Source: a virus. From it: DNA of 28,245 nucleotides. Positions 9,405-28,245 of the stretch are shown here, piece after piece. The stretch's first letter is position 1. Each line of letters opens with the position of its first letter. The stretch lies in the IMG/VR virus record IMGVR_UViG_3300017963_000650, positions 1 to 28,245 of that record, one strand, 5' to 3'. The notes beneath the pieces are model-generated. The model made no database searches and was not told the origin of the DNA. It saw nothing but the letters and a program-made list of their open reading frames with translations. Position numbers and translations under genes: made by a program.

Positions 9405-10462
9405 TATGACCTTGTATATTCACCTGTTACCGCAATATAGTTTAAAGTTCCACCAATGCCATTATGATCCAACTCAATACCAATTCTTGAACCTGGCACT
9501 TGCGCTGCTGGTGGCAAAAGCGCAAACAATAGCGTTAAATCTATTTCATAACCTGTATTAGCTGTAAAACTGTATGTCGTAGTCGTATCCGCTACGCTAT
9601 TTAGAGTGTATAATTGACCGCTAAGGTGGCTATTAATAGTCACATCAATATCAACAGCAACGCCTGTAAAAGCAGGTATAATAATCAATTGTAATGTATT
9701 GATTGAGGCAAAATCACTAGGCAAAACAAAAGACGTGTTAAAACTACCATTGCTCGCAACGGCGGACGATCCATAAGGTGCTATACTGTTGTTAAAATCT
9801 GTAATATTATAAGACAAAACCCCTGTTGATGGTGGAGTTGCTCCTGGACTTATACCGTCTAATTTTGTTTTGTCGCCTGGCAATAATAAGCTTGCATCTG
9901 TAGTACTTCCTGCTGGTATTGTTGCATTCGTTCCTACGTCACTTGTAACAGTGCCGTCTGTTGGTGATGCTGTATAACCAAGGTTAGCGGCATCAATAGC
10001 ACCTGCTGGGATTGCATCTAATTTTGTTTTATCACTAGGTAAAAGCAAACTAGCATCAATGGTACTTCCTGCTGGTATTGTTGCATTCGTTCCTACGTCA
10101 CTTGTAACAGTGCCGTCTGTTGGTGATGCTGTATAGCCAAGGTTAGCGGCATTAATAGCGTTTGCTGGGATACCATCTAGCTTAGTCTTATCGCCTGGCA
10201 ATAATAAACTTGCATCTGTAGTACTTCCTGCTGGTATTGTTGCATCGGTTCCAGTGTCACTTGTTACCGTTCCATCTGTAGGGGTAGCTGTATAACCTAA
10301 ATTAGTTCCACCACCACCACCGTTATCAAAAAAGGGCTTAGCATCTGTGGCCGTTACTTTTTTTAATATGCCATTTGTTTCAATTAGAAAATTATCCTCA
10401 CCAACCAAACTAGATAATGGGTTTAATCGTCTTACATGATTTGGAATAGGAATTTCTGTCAT
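9404..10462 (-). CDS. Fibre-like protein with three 53-residue repeats
   Basis: The 352-residue product starts MTEIPIPNHVRRLNPLSSLV, has a Gly5 hinge near residue 50, then three tandem 53-residue repeats, each containing NLGYTA-PTDGTVTSD, ATIPAGST-DASLLLP and DKTKLDGIP. The DKTKLDGI motif is a known element of phage tail fibre repeats, often seen as ADKTKLDGIAAGA. The C-terminal 120 residues form a beta-rich head (ITDFNNSIAPYG to YIAVTGEYTRS). I chose ATG 10462, thirteen bases after the upstream stop, over the upstream ATG at 10513, whose extra 17 residues are hydrophobic and encoded within the end of the previous gene. No strong ribosome site precedes 10462, so coupled reinitiation is likely. 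Confidence 0.78.
   Translation of the reverse strand: MTEIPIPNHVRRLNPLSSLVGEDNFLIETNGILKKVTATDAKPFFDNGGGGGTNLGYTATPTDGTVTSDTGTDATIPAGSTTDASLLLPGDKTKLDGIPANAINAANLGYTASPTDGTVTSDVGTNATIPAGSTIDASLLLPSDKTKLDAIPAGAIDAANLGYTASPTDGTVTSDVGTNATIPAGSTTDASLLLPGDKTKLDGISPGATPPSTGVLSYNITDFNNSIAPYGSSAVASNGSFNTSFVLPSDFASINTLQLIIIPAFTGVAVDIDVTINSHLSGQLYTLNSVADTTTTYSFTANTGYEIDLTLLFALLPPAAQVPGSRIGIELDHNGIGGTLNYIAVTGEYTRS
9827..10303 (-). repeat. Three tandem 159-bp repeats in the fibre-like gene
   Basis: Units at 10145-10303, 9986-10144 and 9827-9985 each encode 53 residues in frame. The central and third copies share long identical DNA runs, for example around the GTTCCTACGTCACTTG stretch on the plus strand, while the first copy has diverged. 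This points to recent duplication or gene conversion among units, a common way fibres change length. Confidence 0.92.
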
Positions 10463-11601: not shown

Positions 11602-12747
11602 TTATGAAGTATGCGCTGCGGCATAAGTTGAAATAACGGAAGAACCATAATCTTCACTATCAAATTGCATCTTTTTCACACCGTAAATCATGCGTGCTTC
11701 AATACCTTTGATGTAATTATAGTCTGAAAGTTCTGTCTCGAAAATCATCGGAACATTGCCACGATCATCTGCTTTACCGTCTTTAAGGTCGCCACCGAAT
11801 TTAGAAGCGAATGCCAAGGCGTTTTTACCACAAAGAACCGCACGTTTCACAGTTGGAATAGCAGCATTGGTAATGCTGTCTACACCTGTTGCAACACGTG
11901 AACAAGGAATGATGTTAACATTAGCATATTTTCCAATTGGCTTAGTACCGTACTCGCTACCAGTCATAATTGGATTGTCTGCAATCATGCCACCAGCAAG
12001 GCCACTTAAATAGTTACCATACCATGTAATTTTACCAGACGTATCACGTTTTAAATCTGTTTCTTGTTCATAAGAAATATATAGATCAAACTCATCATCA
12101 ATTGATCCCGCATACGGATATGTACGCAATAATTGCTCCAAAGCAGCATCAACTAAATCAAGTGTGAATGTATCAGCCGAAGTTAAAGCTTCGTCTGTAG
12201 GTGCGCCACCAGCACGGATTATGCGATTAGCGGTTGGTGCATTGACAGCGTTTAAACCCTGTACATATTGCTTATCCGATCCTGTATAAACAGTTCCATC
12301 GGTAATAATTGTAGTTGAGTCAACACCAGCCAACTGATTGAAAACAGATGCATCAAGACGCGAAGCATGGAAAGAAGGTAATAACTCCCTTGCACGATCT
12401 TCAAAGTTAATCATTGAACGCACACCTTCAATTGTAGTACCGTCATTTGGTGAGCTAACAGCGTGACGGAATACATTGAATTTCATTGTGAAAGCTTGAT
12501 TATCAAGTGCTTCCTCATTGCCTTGTTGCGTGCCACCTTCACCAGTACCAACACCAGTTAAAATGCCAGTGAAATTGAAAGTAACTTCATCACCAGCCAT
12601 AGCGCGAGAAAGTTCATCTGCTTTTCTAATAGTTCCACGTTGAGCCATACGACCAAACGCAGTGTTTTTGTACATATCGACAAAACCAAGTTTTGCCCAT
12701 AGTTTGACCGTCAACGCATTGTCGGTCGTCATTTGAGTAGTAGCCAT
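11602..12747 (-). CDS. Major capsid protein, N4-gp56 family type
   Basis: The 381-residue product matches the N4-gp56-type capsid layout: N-terminal ALTVKLWAKLGFVDMYKNTAF, then KADELSRAMAGDEVTFNFTGILTG, GGTQQGNEEALDNQAFTMKFNVFRHAV, and MINFEDRARELLPSFHASRLDASVFNQLAG. The C-terminal half carries VDAALEQLLRTYPY and KRAVLCGKNALAFASKFGGD. It forms the HK97-fold shell. It follows the scaffold gene, and is the only virion gene in the operon with its own promoter and a long structured leader, in keeping with the high copy number required. AGGAG lies about nine bases before the ATG. Confidence 0.93.
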   Translation of the reverse strand: MATTQMTTDNALTVKLWAKLGFVDMYKNTAFGRMAQRGTIRKADELSRAMAGDEVTFNFTGILTGVGTGEGGTQQGNEEALDNQAFTMKFNVFRHAVSSPNDGTTIEGVRSMINFEDRARELLPSFHASRLDASVFNQLAGVDSTTIITDGTVYTGSDKQYVQGLNAVNAPTANRIIRAGGAPTDEALTSADTFTLDLVDAALEQLLRTYPYAGSIDDEFDLYISYEQETDLKRDTSGKITWYGNYLSGLAGGMIADNPIMTGSEYGTKPIGKYANVNIIPCSRVATGVDSITNAAIPTVKRAVLCGKNALAFASKFGGDLKDGKADDRGNVPMIFETELSDYNYIKGIEARMIYGVKKMQFDSEDYGSSVISTYAAAHTS

Positions 12748-12763
12748 TACAAGCTGCTCCTAT

Positions 12764-12794
12764 AAAAAAATTAACAAAAATTTGATTGTTAATT
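12764..12794 (-). terminator. Terminator/attenuator-like hairpin in the capsid leader
   Basis: On the minus strand a 9-bp inverted repeat (AATTAACAA at 12794-12786 and TTGTTAATT at 12777-12769, read on the coding strand) with an 8-base loop is followed by a run of U. The stem is all A/T except two pairs, so it is weak. It sits 17 bases before the capsid ATG, within the leader, so it may act as an attenuator rather than a full stop. Confidence 0.4.
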
Positions 12795-12900
12795 ATCCAA
12801 GTTACAGCCCGATTACAGCCCGGCGACGGCGAAGGATAATATGATAAGACACAAAGCTAATTACAGCCTAGCAAAGCGAGAACGATATGCGTCTTGTCTT
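12792..12900 (-). promoter_or_regulatory. Structured 5' leader of the capsid mRNA with three GGCTGTAA elements
   Basis: Between the promoter and the capsid gene, the minus strand shows two stem-loops. The first is closed by TAAGACA/TGTCTTA (12901-12895 with 12851-12845) and presents GCTAG-GCTGTAA-TTAGC inside. The second is closed by ATTATCC/GGATAAT (12840-12834 with 12798-12792) and contains two more GGCTGTAA copies, one in a CCG-CGG mini-hairpin. The three GGCTGTAA octamers lie at 12868-12861, 12820-12813 and 12809-12802. A repeated sequence shown in loops suggests a protein or RNA binding site controlling capsid translation or attenuation. Confidence 0.5.
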
Positions 12901-12903
12901 AAA

Positions 12904-12932
12904 ATATTCTCATAACAAGGGGGTTATGTCAA
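12904..12932 (-). promoter_or_regulatory. Promoter for the major capsid gene
   Basis: A perfect -35 TTGACA (12932-12927) is separated by 17 bases from GAATAT (12909-12904), which is preceded by TGA, the TGn of an extended -10. It begins two bases after the stop of the scaffold gene and drives toward the capsid gene. The -10 hexamer itself matches the consensus poorly. Confidence 0.55.
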
Positions 12933-12933
12933 G

Positions 12934-13914
12934 TTAACCTATCCTTATTTTTTTTACATAATCATCAATTGCAGCTCTGTTTTTTTCTAGCTCTTTGAAT
13001 GACATGTTTAAAATTTGTTCTGGAGTTGGCTTGCCATCTTGAGAACCTGCACTTGATCCACCGATAATAGAATCATGCTTGCGTTGATTTCTATTAATGG
13101 CTGCAATGTTTGGTTTTTGCTCTATAGGTTTTTTTTCAGCTTTTACATTTTCGCCACGATAACCATTTTCAAAAGCTAAAAACTCTATATATTTTAAAGG
13201 GTCTTGACCTGCTCGTGCTGCACTTCCCACCACAAGATATTCTTGTTCTTTTATATGTTGCGTTATTTGCATATCGGTAGCATGTGGATATTGTTTTTTT
13301 ATTTTTTGGATTTCTTGGTTTACTAGATATTTTTTAGCGTTTTCGTAATCTGGATTTGACAAGCTATATTCACGTTCCATTGCATCCCATTGACGTTCTG
13401 CTTTGAGGCGCGCGGCTTGGTCTTCATATTCTTTCTGCTTTGCTTGTAATTGCTTAATTTGATATTGTGTGTATCCGTCTGGGTCAATATCTGGGTCAGG
13501 TATTTCTTCTTGTGGCTCTGTTTGTTGTGTTGTTTGCGCTATTTGATTTGCCTCTTGCATACCTTCTAATCTGGCAATGCGTTCTCTTAGTTCCTGCGCT
13601 TCACTTTCCGCCCTTTTTCTTTCTTCTTTTTCACGCTTTAATTTATGGCGCAATCCTGCTGGTGTTTTTGGTTCTTCTTCTGTTTCTTCTTCTTGCCGTT
13701 CTTGCTCTTGCTCTCCTTCTAATTGCTCTTGCTCTACTACTTCTTGTTGGTTCTCCACCTCCCCAGATGGTTCCCCTTGCTCATCGTCTGTTAAATTTAG
13801 TTCTTGTTGTGATTCTTGCAACAAATCTTCTGTTGGTGTTGTTTCTTGTTCTTGCCCTTGCTGTAGTTTTTTTAACTCCTCAAGTGCTTCCTTTTCTGTT
13901 TCGTGAATACTCAT
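12934..13914 (-). CDS. Capsid scaffolding protein
   Basis: The 326-residue product is extremely Gln/Glu-rich for its first ~90 residues (for example EQEQLEGEQEQERQEEETEE), then forms a Lys/Arg/Glu coiled coil (KLKREKEERKRAESEAQELRERIARLEG). Its C-terminal part ends with FKELEKNRAAIDDYVKKIRIG, a basic helix typical of coat-binding ends of scaffolds. Such charge-rich, low-complexity proteins between portal and capsid genes act as internal assembly scaffolds that leave the procapsid. The ATG at 13914 has AGGAG about ten bases upstream and lies inside the end of the small upstream gene. The stop is directly followed by the capsid promoter. Confidence 0.85.
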   Translation of the reverse strand: MSIHETEKEALEELKKLQQGQEQETTPTEDLLQESQQELNLTDDEQGEPSGEVENQQEVVEQEQLEGEQEQERQEEETEEEPKTPAGLRHKLKREKEERKRAESEAQELRERIARLEGMQEANQIAQTTQQTEPQEEIPDPDIDPDGYTQYQIKQLQAKQKEYEDQAARLKAERQWDAMEREYSLSNPDYENAKKYLVNQEIQKIKKQYPHATDMQITQHIKEQEYLVVGSAARAGQDPLKYIEFLAFENGYRGENVKAEKKPIEQKPNIAAINRNQRKHDSIIGGSSAGSQDGKPTPEQILNMSFKELEKNRAAIDDYVKKIRIG

Positions 13915-14059
13915 CGTTTTTAGTCTCCTTAATTTTAAAAGGGGGTGAATACTTTTCGTTTAAAACCTTTTCTACTAGATTGTTAAATTCTGTTTTCAGT
14001 TGGTCAACTGATTTTTCCATTTCTTTTATTTTTATTCGCATTTTTGCAATATTGGTCAT
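13880..14059 (-). CDS. Small coiled-coil protein between portal and scaffold (59 aa)
   Basis: An ATG at 14059 overlaps the portal stop (ATGA), and the frame runs 59 codons to a TGA at 13880, overlapping the start of the scaffold gene by 35 bases in another frame. The product begins MTNIAKMRIKIKEMEKSVDQ, has a short amphipathic heptad-like helix (IKEMEKSVDQLKTEFNNLVEKVL), and ends in a basic tail. The tight double overlap supports a real, coupled gene. Function unknown; an assembly accessory or leader controlling scaffold translation are both possible. Confidence 0.7.
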   Translation of the reverse strand: MTNIAKMRIKIKEMEKSVDQLKTEFNNLVEKVLNEKYSPPFKIKETKNDEYSRNRKGST

Positions 14060-16152
14060 ATCACAAGATCAACTCCTGTTACGCCTCTTTGTTGTATTAC
14101 AGCGTTTTCAATGTCTTTTTGTTCCGCCTCTGATAATGTTTTAAGCGTGTTGGCTCTTGTGTTGTCCGCTTCACTTTCTGTTTTATCAATTTCAACAATA
14201 GTTTTTTGCGCTTTTGCCTCGTTATAAAGTGCCGCGCTTTTCTCTTTTGCAATATTTGCGAGAGCCGCTTCTTGTATAATCTGATTGCTTCTTTGTTCTT
14301 CCGCTATTTGTTCAGGTGTTGCGCCTTTAGGGGTCATAGCCTCAATCAATTTAATTTTATCTTCTTGCTTGATATTGAAATAAGGCACAATAAACGGATA
14401 AATATTTTGTCCAAGCTGTGCAACTTCACGTGCCATTGTTATCATGGTTTCTAGTGTTTGTTGTTTTTGTGTTGGTGTGCTTGGCGCTTCCTGAATATCA
14501 ACGTCATATTCTTCGGCAAGTTTTTGTGATGAAATTTCATCGTAGTTAATTGCTCCATCCCGACCAATAATTTTGAACAATCTACCTTGTGAGTTTTCAG
14601 CTATAGCACGTATAAGCGTTATCATGTAGCGTGCATGTTCTTTTTGATATAGTGCAATACTATCAAAATAGGTTGCTAATGTACTCACTGTTTGATTGAT
14701 TCTTTGCGCTTCTAACAATCCACTAACTTGTGAGGCTTGCGAATTTCCTAAAAACTCTTTGCTAATTCCGGTTACTTCACCAAGTGAATCATTTGACGCA
14801 TTGTAAATATTTTCGTAACCGCTTGGCAATGATGCAACGGCTTTAGGCTGTATTCTACCGCCCGATACCGCCCCATCTGCCACCCTGACAGCCGCTTTTG
14901 TGGTTGCCCATTGTTGCTCGAACCTTACTGGATCTTCAACGGCACTTTCTTCATAAATTACACCGCCTTTAGAATTGGAGGCGATGACGTAAAGCATTTC
15001 TGTTAATGATTTATTGGCGTATTTTGCTGGCTCTTTCAAAGCTGCAACCATTCCGAACCATTGATTACGTTCATAGTCATAATCTGCGGTTTTAAACTTG
15101 ATTGTAAAACCTTGTTGTTCTGGGCTTTTAAATTTGTTGAGTACGGTTTCACCTGTAATAATAGCAGTATAATAAACACGCTTTTTATGTATTTGATACT
15201 CGATATCATCAATGCCAAACGCATCAAAAGCAGCGTTTAAATCTCGTTTTATTTGTGGTGTCATTACGAGATATTTCGCAAGGGGATCAAAAGAGAAATA
15301 GTCGTCAATTTCGTTAGGGTCGTTTTCTTCTATACGTTTGTTTATCATGCTTTGCATGATTTGTGAAAGCTGTGCGGTTAAAACTGGGTTATCAGATTTA
15401 TAAAGTGGGTTTTCTGCTCGGTAATAGGTTTCTAATGTCCAGTATTGGTAATAATATACCTCAACTAAATCCTCATCTTGTCCAGCATCGCCAATAGAGA
15501 TTTTGTTGTAAGTACCGCCTTGTGGATTATAGACAAAATTACCTTGTAAGCCTTGATAAGTTTCAAAATCACCTGGATCAACTGAAGGCCATCTCATTTC
15601 AGCTTCATCACGGCTATATTTTTTGCGTCTAAATACCCACCTTGCATCTAATAAATTAGCCTCTCTTGCTTGCGGATCCCACCAAACATCACCAAAATCA
15701 ATATTTTCTGCTTTTATGTCTCCGTCTGGATTTGTTTCATAAATGATATTTGTATCTATTGCGCCATAGCCACAAATAAGCATGTCTTTATCTTGTCTCG
15801 ATTCTAGGTGGTCAAGATTTGCGTTAGAGCGTGCATAATCACTAATAGCGTTTAAGTATGATGAAAATTGCTCTTGTTCCTGATTGTTTGGGATTCTAGC
15901 TAAATAATTTGGCTTTCTTCTTAACTGAATCATAAAGCCCGATACGGCATCAATGTAGGGCTTTACTTTATTAAATACAACGGAATAACGTTGCCCTTTA
16001 TCCGTCACTGTGGCGGTATATGCCATTCTATCACCAGCAAAAAAAGCATGGTCGTTAGCTGCTTCTGCATGTTGGTTGTTTAAATCCCCTTTTGAGATTT
16101 TTTCGTGTTTTTCCCATTGCTCTAAAAGTTTTTCATTTTTTAATAAGGGCAT
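14056..16152 (-). CDS. Portal protein, P22-like
   Basis: The 698-residue product is close in length to P22 portal. It begins with a helical start (LLEQWEKHEKISKGDLNNQHAEAANDHAFFAGDRM), then RYSVVFNKVKPYIDAVSGF and NYLARIPNNQEQEQ, MLICGYGAIDTNIIYE, and DVWWDPQAREANLLDARWVFRRKKYSRDEAEMRWP, a combination typical of P22-type portals. A central stretch VTGISKEFLGNSQASQVSGL matches the pore-helix region. The C-terminus is a long Ala/Glu/Lys helix (about residues 610-690), like the P22 barrel. It forms the dodecameric DNA entry ring at one capsid vertex. It starts three bases after the terminase stop. Confidence 0.93.
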   Translation of the reverse strand: MPLLKNEKLLEQWEKHEKISKGDLNNQHAEAANDHAFFAGDRMAYTATVTDKGQRYSVVFNKVKPYIDAVSGFMIQLRRKPNYLARIPNNQEQEQFSSYLNAISDYARSNANLDHLESRQDKDMLICGYGAIDTNIIYETNPDGDIKAENIDFGDVWWDPQAREANLLDARWVFRRKKYSRDEAEMRWPSVDPGDFETYQGLQGNFVYNPQGGTYNKISIGDAGQDEDLVEVYYYQYWTLETYYRAENPLYKSDNPVLTAQLSQIMQSMINKRIEENDPNEIDDYFSFDPLAKYLVMTPQIKRDLNAAFDAFGIDDIEYQIHKKRVYYTAIITGETVLNKFKSPEQQGFTIKFKTADYDYERNQWFGMVAALKEPAKYANKSLTEMLYVIASNSKGGVIYEESAVEDPVRFEQQWATTKAAVRVADGAVSGGRIQPKAVASLPSGYENIYNASNDSLGEVTGISKEFLGNSQASQVSGLLEAQRINQTVSTLATYFDSIALYQKEHARYMITLIRAIAENSQGRLFKIIGRDGAINYDEISSQKLAEEYDVDIQEAPSTPTQKQQTLETMITMAREVAQLGQNIYPFIVPYFNIKQEDKIKLIEAMTPKGATPEQIAEEQRSNQIIQEAALANIAKEKSAALYNEAKAQKTIVEIDKTESEADNTRANTLKTLSEAEQKDIENAVIQQRGVTGVDLVI

Positions 16153-20282: not shown

Positions 20283-20311
20283 ATTATAATATATTATTAT
20301 ATATTAGTCAA
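20283..20311 (-). promoter_or_regulatory. Early promoter for recT with shared operator in the spacer
   Basis: -35 TTGACT (20311-20306), a 17-base spacer and a perfect -10 TATAAT (20288-20283). The spacer contains TATAATAATATAT, the element shared with three other promoters in the window. The -35 begins at the stop codon of the preceding pentapeptide gene. Confidence 0.75.
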
Positions 20312-20861
20312 CTTTATTTTTAAAATAATTTTCTATATTAAAACCAGCAGGCCAACGGGTTTTATCGTTGTAAAGTACATTTGAAAGATTAGCGAAAAAA
20401 AGATTGGCGTACCAAAAATACGCCCCATCAAGATTTGCCCCATCAAGATTTGCCCCATCAAAATTTGAGAATGAAAAATCGGTTTTTTCAAGATTAGCTC
20501 CCCCAAGGCTTGCATTTTCAAAATTGGCTCCTGAAAAATAAGCCCCTGAAAGATTACTCATTTTAAGATTTGCGCCCTTAAAATTTGCTTTTTCAAAACA
20601 AGCCCCCGAAAGATCAAGCCCCGAAAGATCAGCCCCTGAAAGATTAGCCTTTTCAAAATTAGCCCACCTAAGTTTAGCCCACCTAAGTTTAGCCCTTTTA
20701 AGATTAGCCCTTTCAAGATTAGCCCCTTCAAGCCAAGCCCTTTCAAGATTTGCCTCACTAAGATTAGCCCCTGAAAGATCAGCCCTTTTTCCTTCTTTTC
20801 CTTTACTTTCAAGCCACAACTCATGGTCTTTTAAAATGTTTTGTAATTCTTCTTTATCCAT
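20304..20861 (-). CDS. Pentapeptide-repeat protein, long paralogue (185 aa)
   Basis: After a start [20 protein letters not shown] come about 25 consecutive A(N/D)LXX-type pentapeptides (residues about 25-155), then a C-terminal cap with [15 protein letters not shown]. Such proteins form right-handed quadrilateral beta-helices; a few mimic DNA and bind gyrase, while most phage ones have no known role. It is clearly paralogous to the next gene upstream, with the same N-terminal and C-terminal caps. Its ATG overlaps that gene's stop by eight bases, with GAGG supplied by the upstream coding sequence. Confidence 0.88.
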
Positions 20862-21150
20862 TTTTAAGTACCTCTTCTATATTAAAACCAGTAGGCCAAA
20901 CGGTTTTATCGTTGTGAAGTACATTAGAAAGATAAGCCCACCCAAGATCAGCCCCTGCAAGATTAGCCTTTTCAAGATTAGCCTTTTCAAGATCAGCCCT
21001 CCTAAGATCAGCCCTCCTAAGATCAGCCCCCACAAGATAAGCCCTCCTAAGATTAGCCCCTGAAAGATTAGCCTTTTTTCCTTCTTCTCCTTCGCTTTTA
21101 ATCCATAACTCATGGTCTTTTAGAATGTTTTGTAATTTTTCTTTATCCAT
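20854..21150 (-). CDS. Pentapeptide-repeat protein, short paralogue (98 aa)
   Basis: The product starts [20 protein letters not shown] and has about ten pentapeptides ([20 protein letters not shown]), then the cap [15 protein letters not shown] shared with the downstream paralogue. It differs from that one mainly by loss or gain of helix coils. It lies three bases after the exonuclease stop, and the last two Glu codons of the exonuclease (GAGGAG) provide its ribosome-binding site, so it is coupled to the recombination genes. Confidence 0.88.
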
Positions 21151-28099: not shown

Positions 28100-28114
28100 A
28101 CCATCGGGTCAGGA

Positions 28115-28245
28115 GCCGATTTTCCAGTGAGTTTTCACCAGTCAGTGAAATTTCACCGAACACTATAAAGGAATCCATCCTTATAACGTAGCCGATCCTC
28201 CAGTGAGTTTTCACCAGTCAGTGAAATTTCACCGAACACTATAAA
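28115..28245. repeat. 76-bp direct repeat array with palindromic iterons at window edge
   Basis: A 76-base unit begins at 28115 and again at 28191; the second is cut by the window edge after 55 bases and differs at two positions. Each unit holds two iterons 18 bp apart: CAGTGAGTTTTCACC (28125, 28201) and CAGTGAAATTTCACC (28143, 28219). The core GTGAAATTTCAC is a perfect palindrome. There is no gene in 28047-28245. Spacing and symmetry suggest a site for a dimeric DNA-binding protein (origin, partition or packaging), but function is unknown. Confidence 0.85.

Follow-up and report, generated by a model that had tools for sequence, protein, structure and literature searches.

Pseudoknots compete with or gate the ribosome binding site (RBS) in riboswitches of the preQ1 and SAM-II types, and alternative folds, pseudoknot versus hairpin, form at the RBS of E. 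coli rpsO (S15). The leader of the MS2 maturation gene is controlled by the kinetics of its folding. For tailed phages, the balance between capsid and scaffold or other parts is mostly attributed to promoters and operon order. In T4, the mRNA leader of gene 32 carries a pseudoknot, 67 nt ahead of the start codon, that is tied to translation control (PMC3014915). This review of 2010, in which the rpsO operator pseudoknot is also mentioned, considers the pseudoknot of gene 32 to be perhaps the sole viral case in translational autoregulation (PMC3014915).

The capsid gene leader described here works, on present evidence, most like the gene 32 pseudoknot and translational riboswitches, being a member of neither. 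It shares with the gene 32 operator of T4, T2 and RB69 an H-type pseudoknot in a phage mRNA leader. However, in gene 32 a single pseudoknot nucleates the cooperative binding of gp32, the encoded protein, over an RBS region that lacks structure, whereas the capsid leader has one to four pseudoknots, an anti-RBS strand, a structured RBS region and the capsid gene downstream. The preQ1 and SAM-II riboswitches differ from the capsid leader, which has no Rfam match and no single conserved ligand pocket and stands before a structural gene. The rpsO pseudoknot includes the RBS region and traps the ribosome, while the pseudoknot of the capsid leader lies upstream. A kinetic version of the model proposed below would work like the MS2 maturation leader; MS2, in contrast, is an RNA phage without a pseudoknot array.

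No match was obtained with Rfam 15 at the gathering threshold for the window and 40 relative loci, and a permissive Rfam scan of the leader returned chance hits only. A likeness to the twister ribozyme was dropped, since the conserved flanks are absent and Rfam gave no match. No description of such leaders was found in the literature searched.

The capsid gene locus

The window, i.e. the whole stretch of 28,245 nt analysed here, is a 28-kb record of a podovirus-like phage. A P22-type portal, a major capsid protein (phrog_334/PF13252) and a terminase are all encoded on the minus strand. The scaffold-like protein of 326 aa has no Pfam or PHROG match. Scaffold and capsid genes are separated by a gap of 186 nt which holds the leader on the minus strand (Table 1). 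The original prediction regarded it as the sole leader of the operon. This is acceptable, as the 141-nt gap between portal and scaffold reads as a small ORF. This lysine-rich ORF (window 13915-14060) has ~50 codons and an ATG overlapping the portal stop codon (ATGACCAATATTGCAAAA...). The corresponding gaps of the relatives L001 and L002 are similar in length and show a similar coding-like stretch at the start.

A promoter for the capsid gene had been predicted as well. Its TTGACA at the scaffold stop codon is common to all four close phages (including L001, L002 and L015). The complete element TTGACA-18-AATATT (12932-12903) is a 10/12 promoter match, which on its own is not significant (8 in 3 kb versus 7.8 expected). 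A perfect inverted repeat, CATAAC-N6-GTTATG, lies between the -35 and -10 elements (window 12911-12928). It was rejected as an operator, being a single exact copy that is lost in relatives. L002 carries a different palindrome, TTCCATAATTATGGAA, over its -10.

Further repeats were seen elsewhere in the window. Positions 9858-10334 hold three tandem 159-bp repeats, 74-87% alike, within a structural gene of unknown function. Partly duplicated pentapeptide-repeat gene(s) adjoin RecT and YqaJ exonuclease at 20304-21150, and a 56-bp direct repeat (96% identical) is located at the record end (28114-28245).

Table 1. Features of the capsid leader and its neighbouring genes, in order of transcription (window coordinates)
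Feature	Position	Strand	Remarks
Scaffold-like gene, 5' of leader	12934..13914	(-)	326 aa; sits between portal and capsid
-35 TTGACA, presumed capsid promoter	12927..12932	(-)	At scaffold stop codon
-10 AATATT	12903..12908	(-)	Weak match; spacer 18
Module 1 outer stem P1, 5' strand AAGACGCA	12888..12895	(-)	Partner 12846-12853; 0/200 shuffled flanks reach it
Module 1 pseudoknot	12856..12877	(-)	S1 GCT(12875-12877)/GGC(12866-12868); S2 GCTA(12869-12872)/TAGC(12856-12859); loop 3 UGUAAU
Module 1 outer stem P1, 3' strand TGTGTCTT	12846..12853	(-)	
Module 2 outer stem P1, 5' strand ATTATCC	12834..12840	(-)	TTACTC in relatives
Module 2 pseudoknot	12807..12830	(-)	S1 GCC(12828-12830)/GGC(12818-12820); S2 GCC(12822-12824)/GGC(12807-12809); loop 3 UGUAAUCG
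Anti-RBS strand CGGGCUGU	12804..12811	(-)	Overlaps S2 3' strand and octamer copy 2
Module 2 outer stem P1, 3' strand GGATAAT	12792..12798	(-)	GAGTAA in relatives
AT-rich hairpin TTAACAA/TTGTTAA	12771..12792	(-)	Pairing kept, U-run not
Shine-Dalgarno AGGAG, capsid gene	12757..12761	(-)	From sequence
RBS strand GCAGCUUG	12750..12757	(-)	Paired with anti-RBS strand in the OFF fold; GAGCAG in all close relatives
Major capsid gene	11602..12747	(-)	381 aa; PF13252, phrog_334

Two pseudoknots in the leader of the window

Three copies of the octamer GGCTGTAA, two stems (TAAGACA/TGTCTTA and ATTATCC/GGATAAT) and an AT-rich hairpin had been predicted, and all of them were found at the expected sites. The octamers are located at 12861-12868, 12813-12820 and 12802-12809, like the stems on the minus (coding) strand. 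A fourth copy in the window is intragenic; the expectation for the whole window is 0.74. Plain folding energy is not decisive because the z score of the leader is only -1.8 on the coding strand (9/200 shuffles equally good) and -1.5 on the other strand.

The octamers turned out to be parts of H-type pseudoknots. These consist of S1 (GCC/GGC), S2 (GCC/GGC or GCTA/TAGC) and UGUAA in loop 3, with an outer stem around. The module 1 octamer and the first copy of module 2 each provide the S1 3' strand and loop 3. The second copy of module 2 provides the S2 3' strand plus UGUAA and can pair with the RBS, too. Within module 2, the GGC of the first octamer is the partner of the S1 GCC, and that of the second is the partner of the S2 GCC. 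The octamers had been placed in or near loops; they also form the 3' strands of the pseudoknot helices and are not simply loops. The assignment to H-type pseudoknots is based on the interleaved helices S1 and S2 with loop 3 crossing, on covariation in both helices and on the density compared to controls (see below).

Conservation among close relatives

The leader is kept in phages with capsid proteins 71, 76, 76 and 99% identical, although two of the scaffold proteins are only 41-44% identical to that of the window. A core CGCC-nnn-GCCGGGCTGTAATCGGGCTGTAAC is nearly invariant among them. When all contigs of IMG/VR were scanned, the strict core was found only in the four capsid leaders. One extra match of the first pattern (L008) is intragenic on an unrelated contig and was taken as chance.

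The helices vary in a compensatory manner. The stem enclosing module 2 changes from ATTATCC/GGATAAT to TTACTC/GAGTAA in close relatives, and S1 of module 2 in L015 is ACC/GGU instead of GCC/GGC. For S2, replacements are GCU/AGC, GUC/GAC, UUUCA/UGAAA, UCUUA/UAAGA, CGUGUUC/GAACACG and others. A sequence-based alignment of the window-type modules has 100% paired cells in S1 and 87% in S2, and the outer stems are better than most shuffled flanks in the majority of modules. Among GGYYGTAA sites in 13 leaders, 15/19 form this pseudoknot; the proportion is 7/79 at other sites of these loci and 7.7% once the flanks are shuffled.

Pseudoknot arrays across the clade

An alignment-based capsid search yielded 80 relatives, and 60 related capsid leaders (31-99% capsid identity) were compared. 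They exhibit one to four small pseudoknots with an A-rich loop 3 (UGUAA, UUUAAA, UCAAC, AUAAAA). Isolates with known hosts, namely Rhizobium, Paracoccus and Microcystis, also carry such folds. The sense strand of capsid leaders has 8.78 pseudoknots per kb with YAA in loop 3, compared to 1.23 for the antisense strand and 1.81 for the remaining gaps of these loci (1.27 after gap shuffling); the descriptor was derived from the same leaders it was later tested on, with the flat shuffle, antisense and coding controls as safeguard. At E<=-13 there are 1.10 pseudoknots per leader versus 0.14 in shuffled sequences and 0.16 in windows of capsid coding sequence. With control loop words, enrichment in the leaders is slight or absent.

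One pseudoknot can be aligned across 19 distant leaders (capsid identity ~41-48%). Here, 93.9% of the cells are paired versus 65.8% in shuffles, and the covariation score is 0.797 versus 0.268; neither value was reached in any of 500 shuffles, and slid controls give 19-46%. All six pairs (6/6) are changed on both sides, i.e. compensatory. The original prediction of a conserved structured leader with repeated elements is therefore borne out by covarying helices, and the architecture would suit a control element for capsid expression. The expectation that pairing or octamers recur in homologues survived as well: the octamers persist in near relatives, and the pseudoknot fold persists, with another loop word, in distant ones.

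The distant leaders L036-L070 share the order of pseudoknots and unpaired motifs (CTGCAAAACG..TCG..CAC, GCTTTAAA), which suggests one large RNA fold rather than independent knots. The relatives from Aeromonas and Vibrio (57-60 kb) have gaps of 24-71 nt without an array. Pseudoknot scans of whole single genomes did not single out the leader in 2/3 isolates; such scans lack power because short pseudoknots are too common for detection in a single sequence.

An HNH gene separates the scaffold-side genes from the leader in the phages of Rhizobium and Paracoccus, indicating that the leader stays with the capsid gene. HNH/homing endonuclease genes adjoin the capsid gene in L009 (2298-2873), L010 (2208-2786) and L012 (1306-2893). 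The capsid gene of L012 (ctDrO704) looks interrupted 5' of its annotated start, possibly by an intron.

Pairing of the last pseudoknot with the ribosome binding site

RNAfold was used to predict the leader structures of the four close phages. In each of them the last octamer is paired with GCAGYY adjoining the Shine-Dalgarno sequence (probability 0.97-0.998), so that the AT-rich hairpin grows into a long stem covering the site of ribosome binding. Inspection of both folds in the window revealed that this stem takes up bases which S2 and the module 2 outer stem also require.

The region from -85 to -36 is complementary to the RBS far beyond shuffles with a mean z of -1.57 and a Fisher p of 1e-11 in 36 leaders (1.9e-12 in 60), whereby the per-leader p values are not independent and overstate independence as the leaders are homologous. 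Three control pairings in the same leaders are flat (p 0.46-0.99). Only about one leader in three shows a clear signal, for instance L041 (UACCUAUAAAUAA paired to UUAUUUAUAGGUA), L043, L052, L054, L059 and L061. The window's own duplex is weak (20/200 shuffles), and the weight comes from the relatives. In 19/32 leaders, versus 9.7 expected, some bases of the anti-RBS strand also belong to the S2 3' strand of the last pseudoknot. Owing to this overlap, pseudoknot and RBS-sequestering hairpin would be mutually exclusive. Sequestration of the RBS is thus indicated by a conserved anti-RBS strand whose pairing excludes the upstream fold.

In distant relatives the AT-rich hairpin is kept as GTTGAA/TTCAAC, mostly without a U-run. 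Judged from this conservation, it is the tip of the RBS-sequestering hairpin and not a terminator. RNAfold ignores pseudoknots, and without their energies the OFF fold is favoured by about 5-10 kcal/mol. The ON state would hence need help, either from a bound factor or from co-transcriptional folding.

Discussion

We consider it probable that the leaders form a translational-control family for the phage capsid gene, in which a pseudoknot fold competes with an RBS-hiding hairpin. Sequence comparison lends good support to the pseudoknots, to their confinement to this leader and its sense strand, and to the anti-RBS complementarity. We infer a switch between the two folds in the cell, by which capsid translation is set. 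As the 5' leader of capsid mRNA, the region would be read from a promoter overlapping the end of the scaffold gene and fold into two (in relatives one to four) H-type pseudoknots, followed by the AT-rich hairpin and the RBS. The 3' part of the last pseudoknot would double as the anti-RBS strand. With the pseudoknot formed this strand would be held and the RBS free (ON); with the pseudoknot open it would pair with the RBS across the AT-rich hairpin (OFF).

A different role was proposed originally for the hairpin, namely that of an attenuator. A transcription attenuator ending in a U-tailed hairpin is hardly credible. In the window the hairpin is indeed followed by TTTTTTTAT, but the stem is all A-T except for one G-C pair, where an intrinsic terminator has a G+C-rich stem and a conserved U-run. 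The U-run is gone in L002, broken in L001 and L015 and mostly missing from distant hairpins, and a terminator scan makes no call at this site. As the RBS complementarity is conserved and the U-tract is not, the data point to translation rather than attenuation. The same complementarity is left unexplained by a processive antitermination RNA (HK022 put-like) that starts the late transcript. Such an RNA would be structured and near the presumed start of a many-gene transcript, as is the leader; yet the array is found only before the capsid gene and its units vary in number and sequence, so that we regard this role as very improbable.

The switch also has to be weighed against a purely structural leader, in which an array located at the mRNA 5' end, or close to it, protects the capsid message from decay and ribosome binding is assisted by the AT-rich region, with no regulated switch. 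The fold is kept while helix sequences and pseudoknot number vary, the first outer stem of the window is at the predicted transcript start, and capsid demand is high, capsid protein being required in high amount. All this would fit. However, a constitutive leader does not predict RBS complementarity that overlaps the last pseudoknot, and we consider it unlikely. Mutually exclusive folds with RBS sequestration, tandem units and some conserved unpaired bases in the distant group would equally be expected from a small-molecule riboswitch that combines pseudoknot aptamers with an expression platform acting on translation. Against this stand the loops, which differ between branches and leave no single conserved pocket, and the target, a capsid instead of a metabolic gene; a riboswitch therefore appears distinctly improbable.

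For the translational switch, a protein made during infection, or co-transcriptional folding leaving only fresh mRNA in the ON state, would be a more likely trigger than a small molecule. As a tentative extension, the tandem pseudoknots might sense the state of assembly, through free capsid or scaffold protein or some different signal of infection, and gate translation of the capsid gene via the anti-RBS strand, as a new class of RNA switch throughout this podovirus clade.

If the proposed control holds true, it would constitute a direct, testable layer of capsid control in phages of several hosts. The capsid leader would then provide a second viral pseudoknot in translational control after that of T4 gene 32, and a new RNA family for annotation.
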